NCBI RefSeq assembly: GCF_016653315.1
Contig: NZ_NHSH01000061.1
Location: forward strand, 248,001-312,000
Direction: 5' to 3'
DNA length: 64,000 bases
Source of the DNA: Halochromatium roseum
GTDB lineage: Bacteria > Pseudomonadota > Gammaproteobacteria > Chromatiales > Chromatiaceae
Below, in pieces: positions 5,243 to 56,738 of this stretch (positions are counted from its first letter, which is position 1; each line of letters opens with the position of its first letter). A program made the position numbers and the translations under genes. Under the pieces are notes generated by a model. That model searched no databases. It saw only the letters and a list, made by a program, of their open reading frames with translations, and had not been told where the DNA came from.

Positions 5243-7167
<1,925 letters not shown>

Positions 7168-7191
7168 TCACCACCCTTACGGAGCATCACA

Positions 7192-7605
7192 ATGACCAAG
7201 TTTGCAAAGGTACTCGGAATCGCTGCCATTGCCACCAGCGCCGCCTTCTCGATGGGCGCTGCTCAGGCTTGGTGGGGCGGTCCTGGCTACGGCGGTCCGG
7301 GTTACGGCGGACCTGGCTACGGCAGCGGCTGGGGCGACGGCATGGGCGACATGTTCAGCGACATGGTCGGTGACGGCTATGGCGACTTCAACATGAGCAT
7401 GAGCGGCGGCGGTCGTGGCTATGGTCGCGGTCGCGGCTACGGCTATGGCCGTGGTTATGGCGATGGCTACGGCTATGGCTACCCGGGCTATGGCTACGGC
7501 GCTCCTTATGGTTACGGTGCTCCCTACGGCTACGGCGCCCCTTATGGCGTGCCTTACGGCGCACCCATGGCCCCGGCCGCTCCGGCTGCTCCTGAGGCCA
7601 AGTAA
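7192..7605 (+). CDS. Sulfur globule protein-like, secreted Gly/Tyr-rich structural protein
   Basis: The 137-residue product has a signal peptide ([20 protein letters not shown], cleavage expected after AQA near residue 26) followed by a Gly/Tyr-rich repetitive body: [12 protein letters not shown] at the start, then [15 protein letters not shown] and several GYGAPY units, and a short Pro/Ala tail. This composition matches the proteins that form the envelope of periplasmic sulfur globules in Chromatiaceae (SgpA/B/C type), so it probably coats stored sulfur. Start chosen at 7192 because a GGAG ribosome-binding site lies 8 nt upstream; the open frame extends further upstream without a sensible leader. 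It is monocistronic, followed by a strong terminator, and diverges from pyrG. Another Gly/Tyr-rich secreted protein cannot be fully excluded. Confidence 0.8.
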
Positions 7606-7940: not shown

Positions 7941-7954
7941 TTGATGCATGTCAA
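7941..7954. promoter_or_regulatory. FNR/ANR-type box upstream of fnr
   Basis: TTGATGCATGTCAA matches the FNR consensus TTGAT-N4-ATCAA with one mismatch and fits the TTGA-N6-TCAA core. It lies 44 bp before the fnr start codon, so it most likely mediates autoregulation. The match is direct; binding is inferred. Confidence 0.75.
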
Positions 7955-7998: not shown

Positions 7999-8757
7999 TT
8001 GACTCAGCGAAAAGTAATCTCGTTCGACACGATCCGAGTCGCCTGCAAGAACTGCTCACTGTCGCAGCTCTGTCTGCCAATGGGCCTCGCGCCGGAAGAT
8101 GTCGAACGTCTCGACTCGATCATTAAGCGATCCCGTCCACTGCACCGCGGTGACCACCTGTTCCGTGGTGGCGAGCGCTTCCGGTCTCTCTATGTCGTCA
8201 AGACCGGGTCAGTCAAGACCTATGCGCCCAGCGAGGAGGGCGGTGAGCAGGTACTCGGCTTCCACCTTCCCGGCGAGATCATCGGTCTCGACGCCATCGA
8301 TAAATCGTGCCACGCCTGCTCGGCCAAGGTGCTCGAGACCTCGGCAATCTGTGAAGTTCCCTTCCAGCGCTTCGAGGAATTGGCCGCAGCGATCCCTTCC
8401 CTTCAGCACCAAATGTATCGACTGCTGAGCAAAGAGATTGGGCAGGACGCCGACATGTTGCTTCTACTCGGCAAGAAAAACGCCGAAGAACGCCTAGCGG
8501 CCTTCTTGACGAGCATGTCAAGTCGACTGAGCAAGCGCGGCCTCTCCCCAACCGACTTCTATCTGAGCATGTCGAGGCATGAGATCGGCAGCTACCTCGG
8601 GCTCGCGGTAGAAACCGTCAGTCGGCTCTTCACACGCTTCCAAGAGGATGGCCTGCTCCGCGTCGATCGGAAGCATGTCGAGGTGCTCAACCTGAGCGCC
8701 CTCGAAATGATGGCTGGGGCGCCTCCGTCCAGCGCACATAAGCAACGCTCGAACTAA
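7999..8757 (+). CDS. fnr: FNR/ANR-family oxygen-responsive transcriptional regulator
   Basis: A Crp/Fnr-family DNA-binding protein expected to sense oxygen through a [4Fe-4S] cluster. In the 252-residue product cysteines 16, 19 and 25 (C-x2-C-x5-C) plus C118 in ETSAICEVPF match the four cluster ligands of E. coli FNR. A cyclic-nucleotide-like beta roll follows (RGGERFRSLYVVKTGSVK), then a C-terminal helix-turn-helix (SRHEIGSYLGLAVETVSRLF) with the E..SR recognition residues that read TTGAT. The start is TTG at 7999: the frame opens only at 7972, has no other start before the cysteine motif, and the next ATG would remove the ligands. A palindromic FNR box precedes it. Confidence 0.92.
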   Translation: MTQRKVISFDTIRVACKNCSLSQLCLPMGLAPEDVERLDSIIKRSRPLHRGDHLFRGGERFRSLYVVKTGSVKTYAPSEEGGEQVLGFHLPGEIIGLDAIDKSCHACSAKVLETSAICEVPFQRFEELAAAIPSLQHQMYRLLSKEIGQDADMLLLLGKKNAEERLAAFLTSMSSRLSKRGLSPTDFYLSMSRHEIGSYLGLAVETVSRLFTRFQEDGLLRVDRKHVEVLNLSALEMMAGAPPSSAHKQRSN

Positions 8758-27571: not shown

Positions 27572-29152
27572 ATGAAGCAAAAAGAGATCGCCGCGCTCTT
27601 GGACGAGCCCGCCTGTGAGCACAACACCAAGGCCAAGTCCGGCTGCGCCAAACCCAAGCCCGGCGCGACCGCTGGCGGCTGCGCCTTCGATGGCGCCCAG
27701 ATCGCGCTGCTGCCGATCGGCGATGTCGCGCACATCGTGCACGGCTCTATCGCCTGCGCCGGCAGCGCTTGGGACAATCGCGGCAGCCGCTCGACCGGCC
27801 CGACCCTGTACAAGCTCGGCATGACCACCGACCTGACCGAACAGGATGTGATCATGGGTCGCGGCGAGAAGCGGCTGTTCCATTCGATCAAGCAGGCGAT
27901 CGAGAGCTACGATCCGGCGGCGGTCTTCGTCTACAACACCTGCGTGCCGGCGTTGATCGGCGATGATGTCGATGCGGTCTGCAAGGCCGCCGCCGAGCGC
28001 TTCGGCAAGCCGGTGGTCTCGGTCGATGCGGCCGGCTTCTACGGCACCAAGAACCTCGGCAACCGCATCGCCGGCGAGACCATGGTCAAGCAGGTCTGTG
28101 GTGGCCGCGAGCCCGACCCGATCCCGACCGGCATCGAGCGGCCCGGCTTCAAGGTGCATGATGTCGCGCTGGTCGGCGAGTACAACATCGCCGGTGAGCT
28201 GTGGCGCGTGATGCCGCTGTTCGACGAACTCGGCATCCGCGTGCTCTGCACCCTCTCCGGCGATGCGCGCTTCCACGAGGTGCAGACCATGCACCGCGCC
28301 GAGGTCAACATGATGGTCTGCTCCAAGGCGATGATCAACGTCGTCCGCAAGCTCGAGCAGGCCTTTGGTACGCCCTGGTTCGAGGGCAGCTTCTATGGGG
28401 TCGCAGACGTCTCGCGGGCACTGCGTGACTTTGCGCACCTGATTGGTGATCCGGACCTCAGCGCCCGCACCGAGGCGCTGATCGCCCGCGAGGAGGCGCG
28501 CATCGATGTCGAACTCGAGCCCTGGCGCGAGCGCCTGCGCGGCAAGCGGGTGCTGCTCTACACCGGCGGCGTCAAATCCTGGTCGGTGGTCTCGGCGCTG
28601 CAGGATCTCGGCATGAGCGTGGTCGCCACCGGCACCCGCAAGTCGACCGAGGACGACAAGGCGCGCATCCGCGCGCTGATGGGCGACGAGGCGGTGATGA
28701 TCGAGGACGGCAATCCCCGCAACCTGCTCGATCTCTATCGGCAACAAGGTGCCGATCTGCTGGTCGCCGGTGGTCGCAACCAATACACCGCACTGAAGGC
28801 ACGCATCCCCTTCCTGGATATCAACCAGGAGCGCGAATTCGGCTATGCCGGCTACGACGGCATGCTCGAGCTGGCGCGGCAGATGTGTCTGACCATCGAG
28901 AGCCCAATCTGGGCGGCGGTGCGCAGCGCTCCGCCCTGGCGAAGTGCCAGCGGTGGAGTCGCGGCCGATGCGTCGCTTGCACCATCGGCAGAGACCGAGA
29001 CTGGAGCGAGCGCCGAAGGTGAACCTGGAGCCGACACTAGAGCCGGAGCTAAAACCGAAGCCAACTCGAGCGCCAATGATGCTGTGGCATCAGGAACCCT
29101 CAAAGAGAGCATCGTCGCCGCGCAGGCAGAAACGGAGGCGGCCCATGGCTGA
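27572..29152 (+). CDS. nifE: Nitrogenase FeMo-cofactor scaffold protein NifE
   Basis: NifE with NifN forms the scaffold on which the iron-molybdenum cofactor is finished. The product has [49 protein letters not shown] and [18 protein letters not shown], matching NifE with its conserved cysteines. At 526 residues it is longer than most NifE: after [17 protein letters not shown] there is an Ala/Glu/Thr-rich tail of about 75 residues. The stop overlaps nifN by 8 bp. It is the first gene after the sigma54 promoter; nifHDK are not in the window. Confidence 0.97.
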
Positions 29153-30578
29153 GCCCACCATCATCAAGCGCAACAAGGCCCTCTCGGTCGGTCCGCTCAA
29201 GGCCAGCTCGACGCTCGGCGCCACCCTCGCCTTCCTCGGCATGCATCGGTCGATCCCGATGCTGCATGGCTCCCAGGGCTGCACCGCGTTCGGCAAGATC
29301 TTCTTCATCCAGCACTTCCGCGAGCCGATGCCGATGCAGACCACGGCCATGGATCAGGTCAGCACCATCATGGGTGGCGATGAGAGCATCGTCGAAGGGC
29401 TAGCGACGATCTGCGCCAAGCATCAGCCAGCACTGATCGGCATCCCCACCACCGGTCTGGTCGAGACCCAGGGCGCCGATGTGCCGCGCGCCATCCAGAT
29501 GTTCCGCGATCGGCATCCGGAGTACGCTGAGGTGGCGGTGGTCCCGGTCGCCTCGCCGGACTACAGCGGTTGTCTCGAGACCGGTTTCAATAGTACCGTC
29601 AAGGCCATCATCAATGCCCTGGTTCCCAAGGCCACTGCCGCTGGCACCCGTCCCGGGCGTCGGCCGCGGCAGGTCAATGTGCTCGCCGGCTCGGCGCTGA
29701 CAACCGGCGATCTCGAGCATCTGAAGGATCTGCTTGAGCGTTTCCGGCTCCGCCCACTGATGCTGCCCGATCTGGCCGACTCGCTCGACGGCCATCTCGT
29801 CGATAACGACTACAACGCCCTGACCATCGGCGGTACGCCGCTTGATGAGCTGTCGACCCTTGGCGATGCGGCCGCGACGCTCGTGATCGGCCGCTCGATG
29901 ACCGGCGCCGCCGATCTGCTCGCCGAGCGCACCGGGGTTCCAGACCATCGCTTCCCGCATCTGATGGGGCTGGAGGCCATGGATCGCTTCATCGGCACCC
30001 TCGCCGAGATCAGCGCTGAGCCGGTGCCCGAGCGCATCGAGCGCCAGCGCTCGCAGCTGCAAGACGCGATGCTCGATGCCCACTTCTCGATCGGCCAGGG
30101 CCGCTTCGCGATCGCCGCCGAGGCCGATCTGCTCGTCGCCTTCTCGCAGCTGCTCGCCAGCATGGGCGCCGAGACCGTCGCCGCGGTTGCGCCGACCAAC
30201 GCGTCGAGCCTGGCCGAGGTCGCCGCCGCACAGGTCAAGATCGGCGATCTGGAAGACCTCGAGCAGCTCGCCCGCGCCAACGGTGCCGAGGTGCTGATCA
30301 CCAATAGCCATGGCACCCATACCGCCGAGCGCCTTGGCATCCCGCTGCTGCGCGCTGGCTTCCCACAATTCGACCATGTCGGCGGCTGGCAACGGCAGTG
30401 GATCGGCTATCAGGGCACTCGTCAAACCCTGTTTGATCTGGCCAACATTATGCTGGGTCTGCACAAGGGCGAGATCGCACCCTATCGCTCTCGTCTGAAG
30501 CAATGGCCAGAAAACGAGCGCGATGCTGGGCCGGCTCAAGGCTTGCTCGATGCCGGCATCGGTGCGGCACTGGCCTGA
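29145..30578 (+). CDS. nifN: Nitrogenase FeMo-cofactor scaffold protein NifN
   Basis: Partner of NifE in cofactor assembly. From the ATG at 29145 (GGAGG 6 nt upstream) the protein has 477 residues: [60 protein letters not shown] and the [19 protein letters not shown] motif typical of NifN. It overlaps the end of nifE by 8 bp. A longer frame upstream (from 28944) is an overlap with nifE and is not used. Confidence 0.97.
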
Positions 30579-30609
30579 CGAATGCCTAACCCATGGCCAT
30601 GCCGGTGCT

Positions 30610-30648
<39 letters not shown>

Positions 30649-30741
30649 ACAGGCTATCGCTGTCAGCGCTTCGCAGACTCCGCAGCAGCTCGGCTGACTC
30701 GCATGATCGCTCCCGATAAGCCCCGAACCCGAGCCAACAGC

Positions 30742-31227
30742 ATGACCATGAAACGCCAGCTCAAGCTTGTCGGCAACAGGGATCTCGATGATCGCGCAAC
30801 GACCGCGATCAAGGTCGCCTTCGCCACCACCGACCGCCGCCACGTCAATCAGCACTTCGGCGCCGCAGAGGGTTTTGCCATCTATCGCGTCTCCGCGAAC
30901 GGCTACGAACTGCTGGAGGTCGCCCAATTCGGCCGCCTCGATATGGACGGCAATGAAGACAAGCTCGGCGCCAAGATCGAGGCCCTTGCCGGCTGCATTG
31001 CGGTCTATTGCCAAGCGGTTGGCGCCTCCGCCATCAGCAAGCTGCGTGCGCAGGGCATTCAACCGATCAAGGTCGCTCCCGAGAGCCTGGTCAGCAGTCA
31101 ACTGCACGCGCTCAAGCGCGAGCTGCGCGATGGCCCGAGTGCTTGGCTCAAGCGCGCCATCGCGCAACAGACCCCGCGCAGTGAGAGCCGCTTTGATGCC
31201 ATGGCGACCGAGGCCTGGGAAGAATGA
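30742..31227 (+). CDS. nifX: Nitrogen fixation protein NifX
   Basis: NifX binds the NifB cofactor and other FeMo-co precursors and passes them to NifEN. The 161-residue product contains IKVAFATTDRRHVNQHFGAA, GFAIYRVSANGYELLEVAQF and CIAVYCQAVGASAISKL, characteristic of the NifX/NafY fold. Start uncertain: ATGs at 30742 and 30748 lack a strong ribosome-binding site, and ATGs at 30703 or 30550 would add an N-terminal extension, the last including a His-Ala repeat. Confidence 0.92.
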   Translation: MTMKRQLKLVGNRDLDDRATTAIKVAFATTDRRHVNQHFGAAEGFAIYRVSANGYELLEVAQFGRLDMDGNEDKLGAKIEALAGCIAVYCQAVGASAISKLRAQGIQPIKVAPESLVSSQLHALKRELRDGPSAWLKRAIAQQTPRSESRFDAMATEAWEE

Positions 31228-47025: not shown

Positions 47026-47147
47026 TAGCCTTGACTCAGATCAACCCCGCTGGTTGGCGGGACGCAAGCTCAGCACTTGCTCTGCACTTGCCGCTAAACC
47101 GCCAATCAGGCCGCCATCCTCTGACCCAAAACCCCGCGGAGAATACA

Positions 47148-48629
47148 ATGCCATATCAGAGCCTGGGCAATCCCTACGACCCCGATCTCGACCTCAGCCA
47201 CGCGCCCGGCTGCGCGTGCAGCAGTTGCTCATCCAGTTCCTCATCGCACAGGCACCATCAACAGGCTCAAGCGCAAGACCCGATCGAGCACCACGCCTCA
47301 GCGACGACAGCCGCGCAGCGACTCGCGCCCCAAGAACTCCACGCCCCCCAAGCGCCCCAAGCACCCCTCTCCCAAGAAGCCATGCTCGACCGCGTCGTCG
47401 AGAGCGCCATCGTGCGCGGCGTCTTCGGCCACAACGAGCTGAGCCGACGCAGCTTCCTCGGCCTGGTTGGCGGCGGCACCTTGGCCAGCATCCTCGGCAG
47501 CCTGCTGCCGATGGACGCGATCAAGGCCGCGGTGCAAGAGAGCGGCGGCCCGCTGGAGAAGACCAAGCTCAAGGTCGGCTTCGTGCCGATTACCTGCGCC
47601 ACCCCGATCATCATGGCCCATCCGCTCGGGTTCTACGAGAAATACGGCCTCGACGTCGACGTGATCAAGACCGCTGGCTGGGCGGTTGCGCGCGACAAAT
47701 CCCTCTCCGGCGAGTACGACGCCTCGCACATGCTGACGCCGATGCCGCTGGCGATCAGCCTCGGCGCTGGTTCCACCGCCGTGCCTTATCGGATGCCGGC
47801 GGTCGAGAACATCAACGGCCAGGCCATCGTGCTGCACAACGATCACAAGGACAAGCGCGACCCGAAGGACTGGAAGGGCTTCAAGTTTGGCGTCCCCTTC
47901 GACTACAGCATGCACAACTTCCTGCTGCGCTACTACGTCGCCGAGCACGGCCTCGACCCGGATCAGGACATCCAAATCCGCGTCGTGCCGCCACCGGAGA
48001 TGGTCGCCAATCTCCGCGCCGGCAATCTCGACGGCTTCCTCTCACCCGACCCGTTCAATCAGCGCGCGGTCTGGGAGAAGGTCGGCTTCATCCACATCCT
48101 GACCAAAGACATCTGGGAAGGCCACCCCTGCTGCGCCTTCGCTTGCTCCGAGCAGTTCACCAAAGAGATGCCGAACACCTACTCGGCCCTGCTCAAGGCC
48201 ATCGTCGACGCCACCTTCTATTCGCAGAAGCAGGAGAACCGCAAGGAGATCGCCGCCGCGATCGCGCCGACCAACTACCTGAACCAGCCGGTGCCCGTCA
48301 TCGAGCAGGTGCTCACCGGCCGCTTTGCCGACGGGCTGGGCAACGTCCAAGACGTCCCCGATCGGATCGACTTCGACCCCTTCCCCTGGCACTCGATGGC
48401 GGTGTGGATTCTGACCCAGATGAAGCGCTGGGGCTACATCGAGGGCGATGTCGATTATCAGGCCATCGCCCAGGAGGTCTATCTCGCCTCTGATGCCGGC
48501 AAGACCATGGCCGAGCTTGGCTATCCCGTCCCCGAGACCACCAACGCCAACTACATGATCATGGGCAAGGAATTCGACTGGACCCAGCCCGAGGCCTATG
48601 TCGAGAGCTTCGCCATCAAGCGCGGGTGA
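47148..48629 (+). CDS. cynA: Cyanate ABC transporter substrate-binding protein (CmpA/NrtA family)
   Basis: Periplasmic binding protein of the nitrate/bicarbonate/cyanate transporter family; assigned to cyanate because cyanase ends the operon. The 493-residue product has an unusual leader of about 95 residues with a GCACSSCSSSSSSHRHH segment before the Tat motif SRRSFLGLVGGGTLAS. The mature part reads LKVGFVPITCATPIIMAHPL, GFYEKYGLDVDVIKTAGWA, FGVPFDYSMHNFLLRYY, EGHPCCAFACSEQF and so on, as in CmpA/NrtA. Start at 47148 has a GCGGAGA site; the frame opens earlier with TTG at 47031, before the predicted mRNA start. Confidence 0.88.
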   Translation: MPYQSLGNPYDPDLDLSHAPGCACSSCSSSSSSHRHHQQAQAQDPIEHHASATTAAQRLAPQELHAPQAPQAPLSQEAMLDRVVESAIVRGVFGHNELSRRSFLGLVGGGTLASILGSLLPMDAIKAAVQESGGPLEKTKLKVGFVPITCATPIIMAHPLGFYEKYGLDVDVIKTAGWAVARDKSLSGEYDASHMLTPMPLAISLGAGSTAVPYRMPAVENINGQAIVLHNDHKDKRDPKDWKGFKFGVPFDYSMHNFLLRYYVAEHGLDPDQDIQIRVVPPPEMVANLRAGNLDGFLSPDPFNQRAVWEKVGFIHILTKDIWEGHPCCAFACSEQFTKEMPNTYSALLKAIVDATFYSQKQENRKEIAAAIAPTNYLNQPVPVIEQVLTGRFADGLGNVQDVPDRIDFDPFPWHSMAVWILTQMKRWGYIEGDVDYQAIAQEVYLASDAGKTMAELGYPVPETTNANYMIMGKEFDWTQPEAYVESFAIKRG

Positions 48630-48858
48630 GGATAGACCGACTGACCGCCCAGCGGCTTTGCTCGACAGGCAGGCCGCTGGGGCTGATGCCGAACCGGACA
48701 GTTCAGCCCACGACTCGGCTCCGAGCAGGCCACCAAGACGCGCGGCTCCCAAGTCGCACAGGCGAGCCGGTTTCGAGCTTGGCCAAGCGAGGCCGTCCGA
48801 CGCGCCTACTGCTCGACCGGCTAATCAACCGATCCATAGACTGAGGACCAACAACCCC

Positions 48859-49689
48859 ATGCTCAAATCCGATTCTTGGCGCGCCGTCATCGTCTCGGTG
48901 TCGCTGCTCGTCATCTTCCTTGGGCTCTGGCAGCTCAGCACCCCGGCACCGCAGGCCGAGGAGGCGCTGAGCGAATACGAACTGCTGATGGGCGGCGCCG
49001 ACCAAGAGGCGCGCGTCCCCTCGCCTTCCGAGATCATCGGTCTGGCGATCAGCGAGCTGTCCAATCCCTTCTATGACGCCGGCCCCAACGACAAGGGCAT
49101 CGGCATCCAGCTCGGCTGGTCACTCTATCGCGTGCTCACCGGCTTCGGGCTCGCGGCGCTGATCGCGCTGCCGCTCGGCTTCCTGATCGGCATGTCGCCG
49201 ATGATGTACAAGGCGCTGAATCCGTTCATTCAGGTGCTCAAGCCGATCTCACCGCTGGCTTGGATGCCGCTCGCGCTGTTCATCATCAAGGACTCCGAAA
49301 CCTCGTCGATCTTCGTCATCTTCATCTGCTCGATCTGGCCGATGCTGATCAACACCGCCTTTGGCGTCGCCGGCGTGCGCAAGGATTGGGTCAACGTCGC
49401 CCGCACCCATGAGCTTGGGCCGATGCAGACCGCCTTTCAGGTCATCCTGCCCGCCGCCGCGCCGACCATCCTCACTGGCATGCGCATCTCCATCGGCATC
49501 GCCTGGCTGGTCATCGTCGCCGCCGAGATGCTGGTCGGCGGCACCGGCATCGGCTACTACGTCTGGAACGAATGGAACAACCTGGATCTGACCAGCGTGA
49601 TCTTCTCGATCCTGATGATCGGCGTCGTCGGCATGCTGCTCGACCTCGCGCTGGCCTCGGCCACCCGGCTCGTCACCTACCAGGAGTGA
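48859..49689 (+). CDS. cynB: Cyanate ABC transporter permease (NtrB/CynB family)
   Basis: Inner-membrane permease of 276 residues with an N-terminal membrane helix (AVIVSVSLLVIFLGLWQL) and a BPD-transport core: LGWSLYRVLTGFGLAALIAL, the EAA-like loop around NVARTHELGPMQTAFQVILP with AAAPTILTG, and VIVAAEMLVGGTGIGYYVW. It lies 229 bp after cynA and 5 bp before the ATPase gene. The cynA-cynB spacer holds no gene. Confidence 0.9.
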   Translation: MLKSDSWRAVIVSVSLLVIFLGLWQLSTPAPQAEEALSEYELLMGGADQEARVPSPSEIIGLAISELSNPFYDAGPNDKGIGIQLGWSLYRVLTGFGLAALIALPLGFLIGMSPMMYKALNPFIQVLKPISPLAWMPLALFIIKDSETSSIFVIFICSIWPMLINTAFGVAGVRKDWVNVARTHELGPMQTAFQVILPAAAPTILTGMRISIGIAWLVIVAAEMLVGGTGIGYYVWNEWNNLDLTSVIFSILMIGVVGMLLDLALASATRLVTYQE

Positions 49690-49694
49690 CCGCG

Positions 49695-50741
49695 ATGAAC
49701 CCGCATTTCCTTGAGATCAAATCACTGGCCAAGCGCTTCCCGGCCAAGCAAGGCGAGCTGACCGTGTTCGAGGACGTCAGCTTCGGCATCGAGAAGGGCG
49801 AATTCGTCTGCATCATCGGCCACTCGGGCTGCGGCAAGTCGACCATCCTCAACGTCCTCGCCGGGCTCGATGCGCCCAGTGATGGCGAGGTTCTGATGGC
49901 CGGCAAAGAGGTGCGCGGCCCGGCACTGGAGCGCGGCATCGTGTTCCAGAACTACTCGCTACTGCCCTGGCGTTCGGCACTGAGCAACGTCATGTTCGGC
50001 GTCGCCGCGCGCTGGCCCGGTTGGAGCAAGACCCGCGTTCGCGAGCACAGCCTCAAGTATCTGCACATGGTCGGACTCAAGGATGGCGCCGAGCAGCGCA
50101 AGCCCGCGCAGCTCTCCGGCGGCATGCGCCAGCGCGTCGCCATCGCCCGCGCCTTCGCGATCGAGCCCAAGCTGCTGCTGCTCGATGAGCCGTTCGGCGC
50201 GCTCGATGCCCTGACACGAGGCACCATCCAGGACGAACTGCTGAAGATCTGCGCCGAGACCCATCAGACGGTCTTCATGATCACCCATGATGTCGACGAG
50301 GCCATCCTGCTTGCCGATCGCATCCTGCTGATGACCAACGGCCCGCAAGCGCGGATCGCCGAATCGGTCCGCGTCTCGATCGAACGACCCCGCGAGCGCG
50401 GCAGCATCGTGCATGATCCCGGCTACTACCCGATCCGCACCCATCTGGTCGACTTCCTGGTCTCGCGCTCGCACGGACTCTCCGGCTCGGCCAACTCGGG
50501 CGCGCCCGGCTCTGGTCATCAAGGCCCGCCGCGCATCGTCGATCCGGCAGAGGCGGCGCGCGGCGCAAGCAGCCTAGGCAGCCCAAGCAACGCCATCGGC
50601 AACGCCGTGAGCAACAGGCCGAGCCATGCCATCGGCAAGGGGCCAAGCAATGCCGTAAGCCATTCGACGAGCAACGCAAACGGCGCTACCGATGACCGCT
50701 CGGTCGAATCCGGCCCGCTGCTGCGCGCCGTCAACCTCTAA
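49695..50741 (+). CDS. cynD: Cyanate ABC transporter ATP-binding protein (NrtD/CynD family)
   Basis: ATPase subunit of 348 residues: Walker [22 protein letters not shown]-loop [17 protein letters not shown], signature [15 protein letters not shown], Walker [18 protein letters not shown] and switch [11 protein letters not shown]. The core ends near residue 260 ([13 protein letters not shown]). It is followed by an 85-residue Ser/Asn/Gly/Ala-rich tail with repeated SNA units, absent from ordinary NrtD. CAGGAG precedes the start; a frame extending upstream overlaps cynB and is not used. Confidence 0.9.
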
Positions 50742-50938: not shown

Positions 50939-51379
50939 ATGACCAAGACCGAGATGAAAACCACCATTCTCGACGCCAAGCAGACCAAAGGCCTGACCTG
51001 GGACGCGATCGCCAAAGCCGTTGGGCTCTCCAAGGAATTCACCTGCTCCGCTTGCCTCGGCATGAACAGTCTGAATCAGACCCAGGCCGAGGCCTGTGCC
51101 GAAGCCCTTGGACTCGGCTCCGATGTGGTCGCGGCGCTGCAGGCATTCCCGCACAAGACCTGGGATCAGACCGTTCCAACCGACCCCCTCATCTACCGTT
51201 TCTATGAGATCGTCGGCGTCTACGGCGAGACCCTTAAGGCGCTGATCCACGAGGAATTCGGCGACGGCATCATGAGCGCCATCGACTACAGCATGGACAT
51301 CCAGCGCCAGCCCGATCCGAAGGGTGATCGGGTCGTGGTGACCTTGAACGGCAAGTTCCTGCCATACAAATCCTGGTAG
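50939..51379 (+). CDS. cynS: Cyanate hydratase (cyanase)
   Basis: Converts cyanate and bicarbonate to ammonia and CO2. The 146-residue protein has the N-terminal helical domain (GLTWDAIAKAVGLSKEFT) and the catalytic domain PLIYRFYEIVGVYGETLKAL and GIMSAIDYSMDIQ. R87, E90 and S113 have the same spacing as catalytic R96, E99 and S122 of E. coli cyanase. It lies 197 bp after the ATPase and lets the cell use cyanate as nitrogen source or detoxify it; released CO2 could feed the Calvin cycle. Confidence 0.97.
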   Translation: MTKTEMKTTILDAKQTKGLTWDAIAKAVGLSKEFTCSACLGMNSLNQTQAEACAEALGLGSDVVAALQAFPHKTWDQTVPTDPLIYRFYEIVGVYGETLKALIHEEFGDGIMSAIDYSMDIQRQPDPKGDRVVVTLNGKFLPYKSW

Positions 51380-51561: not shown

Positions 51562-52503
51562 TTAGCGCAGCCCTTGCAAGACCTCACGATAGGTATGCTC
51601 GCTGAACATGCTCTCGGAAATCCGCACCGTCGGCTTGGTAATGCAGTTGTCCAGCACCCTAGTCGCATGCACCATCAGAATCTCCGGCTTCACGTTCACA
51701 TGCGGCATGCCACTCTGTGCAAACTGGATGTTTTCGAACTCCACCATGGTCAGGTATTCAGCAGGCACCGTATAGCCTTCCCAGACCTCGGCCGAGCGCT
51801 CCAGTTTCGCACCCGGCTCGCCGCGCAGCTGACCAAGCATCGACTTCGAGGTCGCCTGGCCACTGCCGAGGGTCGAGAGACCGATGCGCTTTAGGATCTG
51901 CCAGCCGAGAACCCCCGGCGTCTCCTCGAGCATCTGCATGGTCTGCACCTCGCCCTCCTCGAACTCCGACTCTTTGCCGGGACGCACCTGGTGCTCGGCC
52001 AGCACCATCACCGACTCACCGGTATTGAGTGCATAGCCCTTGACCGCATCGGCGTTGCCGAAACCCTTCTTCATCATCTGGTTGCTCGAGATGAGCTTGG
52101 GCAGCGTGCTCTGGACGATGCGGAAGACCGGCTCAACCGGGCCATCCAGTAGCATCCCGCCACACTTGCCGCAGGCCTCGACGACCACGTCCTCAAAGGT
52201 TTCATGGAAATCTTCATGCGCCTGCCAGGAGTCCCAGTAGGTGAACTGGTCGATCCAGATGTGAGAGAGCTCAGAGCCCATGTCCGAGCTCGCCGCCCAG
52301 CGCATGCCCATCGGGCAGGTACCGCGCTGACGCATCAGATCAAAGCCGCGAAAGCCAGGGGTCAGCGCCGTCGCCAGACACATCTTGCTACTGGCCTCCT
52401 TCATCATGCGCATCAGATTCGGATCATTCTTGATCAACACACGATTGATCGCGACATACAGCGGTGACGCTGGCTCGGCATCGAATAGGGCTTTGATATC
52501 CAT
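51562..52503 (-). CDS. sor: Sulfur oxygenase reductase (SOR)
   Basis: SOR is a cytoplasmic non-haem-iron enzyme that disproportionates elemental sulfur with O2 to sulfite, thiosulfate and sulfide without external cofactors. The 313-residue product (family about 310) has SPLYVAINRVLIKNDPN, SSKMCLATALTPGFRGF with C42, WDSWQAHEDFHETFEDVV with H96 and H100, EACGKCGGMLLDGPVEP with C111, C114 and E124, and EHQVRPGKESEFEEGEVQTM later. Spacing of H96, H100, C111, C114, E124 is identical to H86, H90, C101, C104, E114 of Acidianus ambivalens SOR, and C42 corresponds to the persulfide C31. The ATG at 52503 is preferred; the frame opens at a TTG inside a 14-bp palindrome. It is unusual in an apparently anoxygenic phototroph. 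Confidence 0.92.
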   Translation of the reverse strand: MDIKALFDAEPASPLYVAINRVLIKNDPNLMRMMKEASSKMCLATALTPGFRGFDLMRQRGTCPMGMRWAASSDMGSELSHIWIDQFTYWDSWQAHEDFHETFEDVVVEACGKCGGMLLDGPVEPVFRIVQSTLPKLISSNQMMKKGFGNADAVKGYALNTGESVMVLAEHQVRPGKESEFEEGEVQTMQMLEETPGVLGWQILKRIGLSTLGSGQATSKSMLGQLRGEPGAKLERSAEVWEGYTVPAEYLTMVEFENIQFAQSGMPHVNVKPEILMVHATRVLDNCITKPTVRISESMFSEHTYREVLQGLR

Positions 52504-52543
52504 GGGTTTCTTGGCCTCGAGAGAAGAACAGGAGTAGAGCCGA

Positions 52544-52557
52544 TTGACAATTGTCAA
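52544..52557. promoter_or_regulatory. Palindromic Crp/Fnr-type site upstream of the SOR gene
   Basis: TTGACAATTGTCAA is a perfect 14-bp palindrome that satisfies the TTGA-N6-TCAA core of the FNR/FixK group. It sits 41-54 bp before the SOR start codon. Whether the FNR encoded at 7999 binds it is an inference. Confidence 0.65.
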
Positions 52558-52766: not shown

Positions 52767-55700
52767 TCACTGATGCCAGCGGCGCTCTTTGGCCCAGGCG
52801 CTGAGCCAGGGCAGCACATGCTCGGCTGGCATCGGGCGGGCGATCCCATAGCCCTGGGCATACTCACAACCCATCTGCTGCAGCAGCAGGCCGATCTCGA
52901 ATGACTCCACCCCCTCGGCGAGTACCGGACGCGGCAGGGTGCGCGCCATCAACAGCACGCCTTCGACAATCGCTCGATCCTCGGCATTGTCGAGCATGTT
53001 GAGCACGAAGCGGCGGTCGATCTTGACGATATCGATCGGCAACTGATGAAAGTAGGTCAGCGATGCATAGCCAGTGCCGAAATCATCGAGTGAGAAACGC
53101 ACGCCGAGCCGCTTGCAGTCACGCATCACCGCCGCCGCGGCCACCGCATCATCCAAGCGCGCGATCTCCAATAACTCGATCTCCAAGCGCGCCGATCCGA
53201 CGGCAATCAGCTCAGTGCCTCGTTCGCCGATCTGCTCGCCATCTAAAGCGCCCGCCTGCTGGCCATCTTGCCCGCCCGCCTGCTGGCCACCCGGCTCAGT
53301 GCCCAATTGGCCCGCTCGCGCGCCCGACCGCTCGGCATCCAGACCGAGCGCGCGCTCCAGGAAAACGCTGAAATTCCGCTCCTGCAGCTGGCGCGGGCTG
53401 ATATTGACGCTGATCAGGAACTGATAGCCTTGCTCGCGCCAACGCGCTTGTTGCGTCAAGGCCTCATGGATGAGCCATTCACCGAGGGCAAACTCGAGCG
53501 GGCTGTCCTCGATGATGGGCAGGAACTGATCCGGCCGCAGCAGGCCTTTGTGCGGATGCTGCCAGCGGATCAAGGCCTCAAGCCCATGCACTTGCCCATC
53601 GGCGAGCCGGATCTTCGGCTGGTAATGCAGGACCAGCTGGTTCTGCGTCAGGGCTTGGGCAAACTCCTGATACAGTCGCCGCTGCTGCCGGGTCCGATGA
53701 TCGCGGATCGGATCATAGAGCGTGTAGCCCGCGGAGCCGCGGCGCTTGGCCTGAAACAGGGCCTCGTGGGCATGCTGCAGCAGGGCGTCTGGCCCGGCTT
53801 GATCGATCGGGAACAGGGTCAACCCGAGGCTGACACTGAGATGCAGGTGCTGTCCCTCGACGCTGAGCACCCGCGCAACGCGGCGCTGGATCGCTCGCGC
53901 CCGGTCGATGGCCTCGGCGCTGGTCGTCAGCTCGGTGAGCAGCAGCGCGAACTCATCGCTCCCCATGCGCGCGACAGACTCCGCCTGGTGCACCGCGCGA
54001 CGCAGCCGGCCCGCCAGCTCGATCAGGACCGCGTCGCCAAAGGCGCGACCATCACGCGCATTGATCGCCTTGAAGTCATCGACGTTCAGATAACAGATGG
54101 CGACCAAGGACGACGCTTGCGCGTCGGCCTTGGTGAGCTCGCCGAGCCGCTCGATGAATTGCAGCCGATTGGGCAGGCCGGTCAGGCTGTCGTGATAGGC
54201 GAGATGCTCGATCCGCGCCAGCGCCTGCTTGTAGGCGGTGATGTCGGTGGCGATCTCGACCCGCACCAGGCGGCCGTCGCTCCAGCGCAAGGCGCGATCA
54301 CGCAGCGCGTACCAGCGCTGGCTCTGGGTGTTGAAATGCTCCCATTCGTAGAAACCGCTCGGCTCACCGGAGGCATCGAGCAGTTTGTCGTTGGTGCAAA
54401 AGGCGCAGGGCGACGCAAGCCCTTGCAGCACCTCATAGCACTGCCGGCCAGCGCCATCGCCCCAGACCACCCTCGCGGTCTCGTTCATGAAGACCAGATC
54501 GTAGGTCTCCATATCGGTTACATAGACCGCCGCCGCCATCGCATCCAGCAGTTCACTGACGCGCTGGTGGGCGTCGCGCAGCACCCACTCGCTGCGTTTG
54601 CGCTCACTGATGTCGCGCCAGATGCCAAACAGGTAGGCGCGACCTCCGACGCTGATGGCAACGCCCTTGACCTCGACGGTGAGGAGGCGACCATCGGCGG
54701 TGCGATGACGCGCCTCGAAGGCGTACTCGCCGCGCTCATGGGTTTGTATCAACCGTTGCCTGATCTGATCGGCCTCTTCCGGGACATCGAGATCGGCGAC
54801 GTTCAGGGTCAGGAAGGTCTCGCGGTCATAGCCATACTGCTGGCAGGCGGTCGCGTTGATATCCACGAAGTTGCCTTCGAGGTCGACCACCGCGATCGCA
54901 TCGCCCGCGCTGTTGAACAGCTTGCGGTACTTCTCCTCGCTCTCCAAGCGCGCGTCATGGGCCGCCTGAAGCTCGGCGGTACGCGCCGCCACCTGGCGTT
55001 CGAGATCGGCATTGAAGGCGCGGATCTGTTGCTCCAGGGCGCGCCGTTCGCTGATGTCCTCGACCACCACATTGATGCCAATCACCTCGCCATCACCGCC
55101 CAACAGCGGGTGATAATGCTCGAGGTAAAACCGCGGGGGGCAGGCTGGATCGCGGCTCGGGATTTGGATCTCCTGATCGCGCAGTGGCTCGCCGCTGGCG
55201 ATGACCTGCTTTAGCCTTGGCTCGAGGGTGGCGGCCAAATCCGGCACCATCTCCCGCAGGCCGCGCCCGAGATGGGCGGCCACCGGATGCCCATTGGACT
55301 TGGCCAGGCGCTCATTGATGCGCCGATAGCGCAGCTCGGTATCCAACACCGCCAGTCCAATCGGCGCGGTATCGTAATAGGTTTGAATCTCGGCCAGTTG
55401 GCGCCGAGCGGCATCCTCGCGTTCGAACAGGCGCTGCTCGGCCTGTTTGCGCGCGCTGATGTCCTGAGTGATGCCAGCAAGATGGGTCGGCTCGCCCTCG
55501 GCATCGCAATAGACCCGACCCAACGCGCTGATCCAATGCTCGCTACCGTCATCCCAGCGCAGCCGGTATTCGGCGGCATAGTCTTGCCGCGTTTGCAGGC
55601 TGCGCTCGACCAGCAACTGGACGCGCGCTCGATCCTCGGGATGGATGCGCGCCATAAAGCCAGCATAGCTCGGCGGCTCACCCGCTGGCAGGCCCAGATG

Positions 55701-56318
55701 GCGCTTGCAGCGCTCGGACCAGAAGAAGCGCTCTGGTCGCAAATGGTATTCCCAGACGCCCAGCTCGGCGCCATCGATGGCGAGGCGCAACTGATCGCTG
55801 GTCAGCGCATGCCGCTCGACCTCGGCGGCAAGCTGCTCGGTGCGCTCCTCGACCCGCCGTGCCAGTCGCTGCTGCTCGATCTTGGCGCGCTGCTCGGCGC
55901 GCTTGCGCTCGGTGATCTCGGTCGAGATGCCGATCAGGCCGATGATGCCGCCCTGCTCGTCGCACAGCGGCGCCTTGACGCTCCAGAACGTGCGCGGGCG
56001 CTGGTTGGGCAGGGCAAGCGTCTCTTCGAGGGCAATCGTCGCTCCGGTCGCCAACACCCGCTGATCGGTGGCGATCACCTCGGTACAGCGTTCGGGGGCG
56101 AACAGCTCGAGGTCCGTCTTACCGATCACCTCATGCAGCGCCGCCCCCCAGAGCTGGCAGGCGAGCTGATTGGCGTAGGTGTGGCGGCCTTCAAGATCTT
56201 TGGTATAGAGGTAAGTGCTGAGGCTATCGAGCGCGCCGAGTAGCGCCGGGAGTGCGATCTGGCTGCGCTGAAGGTTCTCAGGCAGCTGTTTGCTGTTGTC
56301 TTGCTCGCGCTGCAGCAT
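52767..56318 (-). CDS. Multi-PAS GGDEF-EAL protein (cyclic-di-GMP turnover)
   Basis: A 1183-residue soluble signalling protein. About five PAS/PAC units fill residues 20-740 (for example RHTYANQLACQLWGAALHEV, GVWEYHLRPERFFWSERCKR, GDAIAVVDLEGNFVDIN). A GGDEF domain follows (HDSLTGLPNRLQFIERL, active-site RMGSDEFALLL, i.e. GSDEF) and then an EAL domain (VHGLEALIRWQHP, SLDDFGTGYASLTYFHQLPI). The EAL domain carries a 45-residue Gly/Gln/Ala-rich insert between GLDAER and ARLEIELLE. No membrane segments are seen. The start at 56318 has AAGGG upstream; the frame extends to 56390. It precedes the SOR gene by 263 bp on the same strand. Confidence 0.92.
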   Translation of the reverse strand: MLQREQDNSKQLPENLQRSQIALPALLGALDSLSTYLYTKDLEGRHTYANQLACQLWGAALHEVIGKTDLELFAPERCTEVIATDQRVLATGATIALEETLALPNQRPRTFWSVKAPLCDEQGGIIGLIGISTEITERKRAEQRAKIEQQRLARRVEERTEQLAAEVERHALTSDQLRLAIDGAELGVWEYHLRPERFFWSERCKRHLGLPAGEPPSYAGFMARIHPEDRARVQLLVERSLQTRQDYAAEYRLRWDDGSEHWISALGRVYCDAEGEPTHLAGITQDISARKQAEQRLFEREDAARRQLAEIQTYYDTAPIGLAVLDTELRYRRINERLAKSNGHPVAAHLGRGLREMVPDLAATLEPRLKQVIASGEPLRDQEIQIPSRDPACPPRFYLEHYHPLLGGDGEVIGINVVVEDISERRALEQQIRAFNADLERQVAARTAELQAAHDARLESEEKYRKLFNSAGDAIAVVDLEGNFVDINATACQQYGYDRETFLTLNVADLDVPEEADQIRQRLIQTHERGEYAFEARHRTADGRLLTVEVKGVAISVGGRAYLFGIWRDISERKRSEWVLRDAHQRVSELLDAMAAAVYVTDMETYDLVFMNETARVVWGDGAGRQCYEVLQGLASPCAFCTNDKLLDASGEPSGFYEWEHFNTQSQRWYALRDRALRWSDGRLVRVEIATDITAYKQALARIEHLAYHDSLTGLPNRLQFIERLGELTKADAQASSLVAICYLNVDDFKAINARDGRAFGDAVLIELAGRLRRAVHQAESVARMGSDEFALLLTELTTSAEAIDRARAIQRRVARVLSVEGQHLHLSVSLGLTLFPIDQAGPDALLQHAHEALFQAKRRGSAGYTLYDPIRDHRTRQQRRLYQEFAQALTQNQLVLHYQPKIRLADGQVHGLEALIRWQHPHKGLLRPDQFLPIIEDSPLEFALGEWLIHEALTQQARWREQGYQFLISVNISPRQLQERNFSVFLERALGLDAERSGARAGQLGTEPGGQQAGGQDGQQAGALDGEQIGERGTELIAVGSARLEIELLEIARLDDAVAAAAVMRDCKRLGVRFSLDDFGTGYASLTYFHQLPIDIVKIDRRFVLNMLDNAEDRAIVEGVLLMARTLPRPVLAEGVESFEIGLLLQQMGCEYAQGYGIARPMPAEHVLPWLSAWAKERRWHQ

Positions 56319-56738
56319 GTCTACCCTTGTTTTCCTATAGGCGAGGCTCGTCCAACACAAATCAAATGCGACGAATGCGTTGCCGAGCATTCGATGCCAA
56401 GCCCATCCAGGGAACTGGGCGCAGGCACGGCGAATGTTTTCGCGACAACATGCTAGGCAAAATCATCAACAGAGTTCGAGATCTACATCACAAGCGAGGG
56501 GGTTGACAGCAACGAGTGGCCTCAGGAATCGCCTCCGGTTGATCATTATCAATCGCGACCAGGGCTCATCCTGCGTGAGTGGCGCGACAGATTGCGGCAC
56601 AAACGCGAGATCGACCGGACGCAGCATGCTCGCGGCTGGATCTCGCTACTGTTGCTCGATGTCGATCGTTGCAGATGGCCGGCTCCACTGCTGGCCGAAT
56701 GGGATGATCAGCGTCGAGCGTCGGCTGATACAGCGAGA
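56319..56738. other. Intergenic region upstream of the PAS-GGDEF-EAL gene
   Basis: 420 bp with no convincing gene; frames on the plus strand here have no recognisable domains. It should contain the promoter of the leftward PAS-GGDEF-EAL gene. Nothing else is visible. Confidence 0.35.

Follow-up and report, generated by a model that had tools for sequence, protein, structure and literature searches.

The minus strand of the window (the whole stretch of 64,000 nucleotides that was analysed) carries an open frame at 51562-52557, where the plus strand has four stops. The frame named in the original prediction is real, and its strand and a corrected start are added here. The first in-frame start is a TTG at 52557. 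Alignments with the nearest homologues begin at the ATG at 52503, and a palindrome lies in the segment 52504-52557. Translation therefore likely starts at this ATG rather than at the TTG, which gives a protein of 313 aa. The features associated with the gene are as follows.

51562-52503, minus strand: sor, sulfur oxygenase reductase (SOR), 313 aa from the likely ATG; assigned by Pfam, PDB match, predicted fold and codon differences.
52544-52557, minus strand: Fnr/FixK-type palindrome TTGACAATTGTCAA, a pattern match that ends 40 bp upstream of the sor ATG.
52767-56390, minus strand: PAS-GGDEF-EAL protein (Pfam EAL, GGDEF and PAS), upstream of sor and in the same direction.
50939-51379, plus strand: cynS, cyanase, the convergent neighbour (TIGR00673, 168.8 bits, cut-off 113.3).
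47151-50741, plus strand: nitrate/cyanate-type ABC transporter (substrate-binding protein, permease and ATPase), a neighbour, with its ATG placed near 47151 by eye.
7999-8757, plus strand: fnr-type regulator, candidate reader of the palindrome (NCBIfam NF008365, 292 bits, cut-off 228).
7036-7605, plus strand: gene for a sulfur globule protein, at a distance from sor (Pfam SGP PF17228 over 7036-7602, E 1.9e-20).

The window protein is a bona fide SOR. It matches the Pfam family SOR (PF07682) with an E value of 7.8e-63 and 212.5 bits (cut-off 25) over profile positions 2-300 of 300, and PDB chain 9rdn_A ('Sulfur oxygenase reductase') with an E value of 1.2e-146. The score against the NCBIfam equivalog NF047630 (SulOxRed) is 187.4 bits, which is below the curated cut-off of 400 bits. 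When seven SOR sequences were scored as a control, six were also below the cut-off, including 9rdn at 177.9 bits, and only L060 passed (416.3). Since 9rdn itself is under the cut-off, the low score of the window protein does not exclude an SOR. The cut-off seems to be set for one SOR branch; all four tested members of the clade of the window protein score under it.

The residues C42, H96, H100, C111, C114 and E124, proposed earlier as the conserved catalytic set, are at exactly these positions in the 313-aa protein and align with archaeal chain 6qjc. Their counterparts in the Sulfurisphaera SOR are C31, H86, H90, C101, C104 and E114 in the numbering given in an excerpt of PMC7398979. The six residues are invariant in 65 aligned rows, with C42 present in 64 and the fragmentary row L053 gapped at that position. 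An AlphaFold2 monomer model built from 39 aligned sequences has a pLDDT of 89.1 and a pTM of 0.90. The best ten Foldseek matches to this model in the PDB are all SORs (TMq 0.85-0.88; 2cb2 with TMq 0.87 and E 2.1e-32), and the first non-SOR fold is 3gn6 with a TMq of 0.57-0.59.

The gene is under strong purifying selection: of the codons that differ between sor of the window and sor of Lamprobacter modestohalophilus, 45 differ synonymously and 2 nonsynonymously (dN/dS about 0.01). A recently acquired or decaying sor without function is therefore highly improbable. The phototrophic relative G011 does retain only a remnant of SOR, the last 68 profile positions inside its contig, and sister genomes lack the block carrying sor at that position; however, the window frame is intact, its promoter site is conserved and the codon counts rule out decay.

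The gene is solitary. It is convergent with cynS and begins 263 bp past the end of the PAS-GGDEF-EAL gene. No operon or conserved partner beyond sor itself was broadly shared among the 40 largest frame clusters of 61 loci, a comparison in which flanks of 5 kb on either side were available for just 31 of 60 loci. The larger clusters consist of frames overlapping sor, of ABC ATPases, or of frames confined to close relatives. A functional link to the cyanase was rejected, as cynS was found only in the window and in L. modestohalophilus (frames of at least 90 aa, 61 loci); it is present in two of nine related genomes searched and is not thought to be part of sor function. Pieces of the window between about 42 and 57 kb are common to L. 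modestohalophilus at 87-91%, but neither G001 nor G007 has the part to the left of about 56.7 kb at the corresponding position. A mobile or viral origin was discarded after viral_contigs yielded no relative (17 pattern stretches, none confirmed), and a plasmid origin after the plasmid collection gave no match at an E value of 1e-5. At 27572-31227 the window also has two frames of the nitrogenase component 1 type oxidoreductase family and one of the FeMo-cofactor family, which we read as nifE, nifN and nifX.

The host genome (G000) has 5,173,123 bases in 88 contigs, with the window on contig C61. The phototrophic host that had been proposed is supported by two Photo_RC genes over the cut-off on its contig C6, which we take to be PufL and PufM. 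The genome also encodes dsrA (660 bits, cut-off 393), and its Dsr presumably runs in the oxidative (reverse) direction. By its type II reaction centre genes and Dsr, the host is a purple sulfur bacterium. It has one COX1-family gene, which is ccoN by NCBIfam (672.6 bits, cut-off 583) and encodes a cbb3 oxidase subunit. The globule-type protein gene also proposed for the window corresponds to the SGP match listed above. In standard accounts, purple sulfur bacteria consume their globule sulfur anaerobically by the Dsr route.

SOR is present in 11 of 142 relatives. Within the family, 17 of 210 genomes have it, 16 of them with a full-length gene and one (G011) with the remnant; part of these 17 genomes are MAGs. 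Photo_RC is over the cut-off in nine of the 17 hosts (G000, G002, G004, G011, G050, G081, G231, G252 and G255), and eight of the 16 full-length SOR hosts have reaction-centre genes. It was not found in the other eight hosts (G043, G048, G164, G248-G251 and G253), an absence that is less sure for G250 and G251 since these genomes are 80% and 89% complete. The SOR that the original prediction placed in a purple sulfur bacterium is therefore real, but its implied uniqueness is weakened by the nine hosts with reaction-centre genes, one of which has only the remnant. SOR was not found in the sister genomes G001 and G003, which we take to be H. glycolicum and H. salexigens, so this lifestyle does not require the enzyme. 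A scan of named genomes, which may omit records of the window's own genome, gave 60 SOR loci, including L. modestohalophilus (DSM 25653, genome G002, locus L015), an uncultured Thiohalocapsa and Thiococcus pfennigii. Eight genomes of genus g42 (G048, G248-G253 and G255) have SOR, and of these only G252 and G255 have Photo_RC; this genus may be losing phototrophy while keeping SOR. Three Thioalkalivibrio MAGs have both SOR types under one record series (L029 and L070 in a T. paradoxus MAG, L030/L066 and L031/L072).

In a tree of 61 rows built from SOR sequences only, the window protein pairs with that of L. modestohalophilus (100/100), is joined next by G081 (100/100), and is located within 11 rows of the same family (100/99). 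The tree omits the incomplete loci L053, L054, L055 and L069, the G101 sequence (L007), the remnant L012, and loci duplicated under another number. The family group joins the 9rdn group at 95/82, and 9rdn itself groups with Thioalkalivibrio MAG sequences (100/100). A position outside SOR had been named as evidence against the prediction; instead the window protein is inside the clade of the solved 9rdn, and family, fold and tree all bear out its identity. A single origin of the phototroph SORs of this type (six rows) is rejected by the AU test (p 0.0071), and the phototroph state requires five changes on the tree. Holding 12 family rows together is not rejected (p 0.297). These rows may form one clade, so loss of phototrophy within one genus, and not transfer, may explain part of the pattern.

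The 42-row clade that contains the window protein is separated from the remaining SORs by a branch of 4.31; the program warns of long branches meeting in the tree. This branch and the 33% identity to archaeal chain 6qjc would fit a different chemistry, in which the enzymes of the clade would chiefly oxygenate persulfides or polysulfides and disproportionate little. An excerpt of PMC6382920 describes low reductase activity for a T. paradoxus SOR, which may be of this type. However, all six active-site residues are kept and the predicted model matches the solved SOR folds over its whole length. This chemistry is compatible with the other readings given here, and we consider it a real possibility, though less likely than not.

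The promoter of sor contains a perfect palindrome of the pattern TTGAYNNNNRTCAA, which we take to be the Fnr/FixK-type consensus (TTGAY-N4-RTCAA). The window has four matches to this pattern where 0.12 would be expected, and the host genome has 30 where a reversed-pattern control gives three. Six related genomes have 19-31 sites against 2-6 reversed, and these include the SOR-lacking G001 and G003. The sites in the window are located before fnr (7941-7954), the ABC transporter (47031-47044), sor (52544-52557) and the PAS-GGDEF-EAL gene (56539-56552), and a further site in the genome is about 90 bp ahead of ccoN. Nine of the remaining 25 sites are inside frames over 600 bases; therefore, some sites are due to chance or some of these frames are spurious. 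Ten downstream proteins from nine site-bearing stretches were scanned. Those over the cut-off are hemN, the RuBisCO large subunit, hcp and a TsoY-family protein. A sulfite-dehydrogenase-like protein is over the Pfam cut-off but below that of NCBIfam SorA (253 of 600 bits), and the others are a multihaem cytochrome, an RND adaptor and three proteins without a match. The sulfite-dehydrogenase-like gene and the divergent TsoY-family gene share one site (L106, G000:C48:37381); the site of the former is missing from the exact-match list of L. modestohalophilus. The new element is the perfect Fnr-type palindrome in the sor promoter, which is common to ccoN, hemN and fnr.

Exact sites are present in three of 64 SOR upstream stretches of at most 300 bp (the window, L. 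modestohalophilus and the remnant L012), where simple shuffles predict 0.075. If one mismatch is allowed, six of 64 have a site against 1.9 expected, and the site in G081 is one of those with a mismatch. In the comparison of the window with L. modestohalophilus the site is within an identical run of about 33 bases, and the whole 200 bp upstream is 80% identical. The palindrome is still ahead of the G011 remnant (L012/L087). No site was found in the 300 bp upstream of the other phototroph SORs (L020, L022, L051, L071 and L074), so this regulation of sor would be lineage-specific. Class II activation is one candidate geometry for the palindrome. However, its centre is 47 bp upstream of the sor ATG, so that any leader would have to be short, and repression or another start is possible. 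The palindrome is thus a putative Fnr site through which oxygen may control sor.

An alternative role is protection, in which SOR mainly scavenges oxygen, excess cytoplasmic sulfane sulfur or both during accidental exposure of an otherwise anaerobic phototroph and has no energy role. We regard this as rather unlikely. The motif is common to genes for oxygen-limited respiration and carbon fixation, a pattern that fits turnover and protection alike. The points in its favor are the patchy presence in the family (17 of 210 genomes) and SOR relatives in MAGs of the Desulfobacteraceae and Desulfuromonadaceae, which are usually anaerobic. SOR itself also conserves no energy according to an excerpt of PMC5023260.

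The role that we favor, with somewhat better than even confidence, is that of a cytoplasmic sulfur oxygenase that is gated by oxygen and works alongside the Dsr route when conditions shift between oxic and anoxic. The family, fold, residues and selection, the palindrome with its enrichment, and the phototrophic host with its cbb3 oxidase and dsrA are observed; from these we infer activity, location, substrate delivery, sign of regulation and physiological role. The protein would be a working cytoplasmic mononuclear non-haem iron enzyme with H96, H100 and E124 as ligands and C42 as the essential cysteine. With oxygen it would convert sulfane sulfur to sulfite and some sulfide and thiosulfate; SOR chemistry is described in excerpts of PMC7398979. 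The anaerobic route for globule sulfur in the host would be reverse Dsr, and SOR would supplement it whenever the cells meet oxygen, either in darkness or where oxic and anoxic zones adjoin. The substrate would be sulfane sulfur imported into the cytoplasm, and the sulfite would pass to sulfite-oxidising enzymes, with oxygen consumed on the way. Transcription of sor is most likely monocistronic, with an Fnr-type regulator predicted to act through the promoter palindrome. A broader and more tentative proposal is an oxygen-gated bypass in some purple sulfur bacteria, in which an Fnr-controlled cytoplasmic SOR would allow a phototroph to oxidise its sulfur stores with oxygen once light or anoxic conditions are lost. 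SOR would have been recruited more than once, and in this species it may share its oxygen switch with the cbb3 oxidase, carbon fixation and the sulfite dehydrogenase.

The enzyme class is known, mainly from microbes that are not photosynthetic; the setting in a purple sulfur bacterium is unusual and was not found reported in the literature searched. No report of an SOR in a phototroph was recognised there, and the trees of Veith 2012 and Ruehl 2017 may show Chromatiaceae. Excerpts of PMC10301885, PMC12998232, PMC6397845, PMC4175335 and PMC10609205 contain nothing on SOR in phototrophs. As excerpted, PMC6382920 describes SOR as rare in Thioalkalivibrio with an unknown in vivo role, and PMC6704655 lists sor in a soda lake set only in Thioalkalivibrio MAGs. 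A similar excerpt of PMC10952691 compares the ciliate symbiont Thiobius with a free-living relative, with sor in one of the two and absent in the other. A selected, intact and oxygen-dependent SOR with a likely oxygen switch is a genetic handle on how phototrophs respond to oxygen and darkness. The host, almost certainly a type strain in culture, can be compared with its SOR-lacking sister species.

The SORs of Acidianus ambivalens and Sulfurisphaera tokodaii (2cb2 and 6m35) share the fold of the window protein (TM 0.87-0.88 on query length) and its iron/cysteine site. However, they are only 31-33% identical to it and are outside its clade, which the longest branch of the tree sets off. The Halothiobacillus neapolitanus SOR (6qpa) likewise has the same fold, but the identity is 28%. 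PDB chain 9rdn is 68% identical over 308 positions, is of similar length (313), has the six catalytic residues and belongs to the same clade. Its tree neighbours are MAGs of Thioalkalivibrio, which are chemolithotrophs, whereas the window gene falls in a Chromatiaceae branch and carries an Fnr-type site in its promoter. Thiococcus pfennigii (L074/L086) and the Chromatiaceae MAG GEM2.Bin25 (G004, L071/L085), which belongs to the window's own genus, also have SOR in hosts with reaction-centre genes. Their SORs are of the other, archaeal-like type, are 28-30% identical to the window protein and are placed inside a Thioalkalivibrio group of that type. This low identity and placement point to a separate acquisition. 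SORs of two very different types occur in purple bacteria, and both are found even in this one genus.
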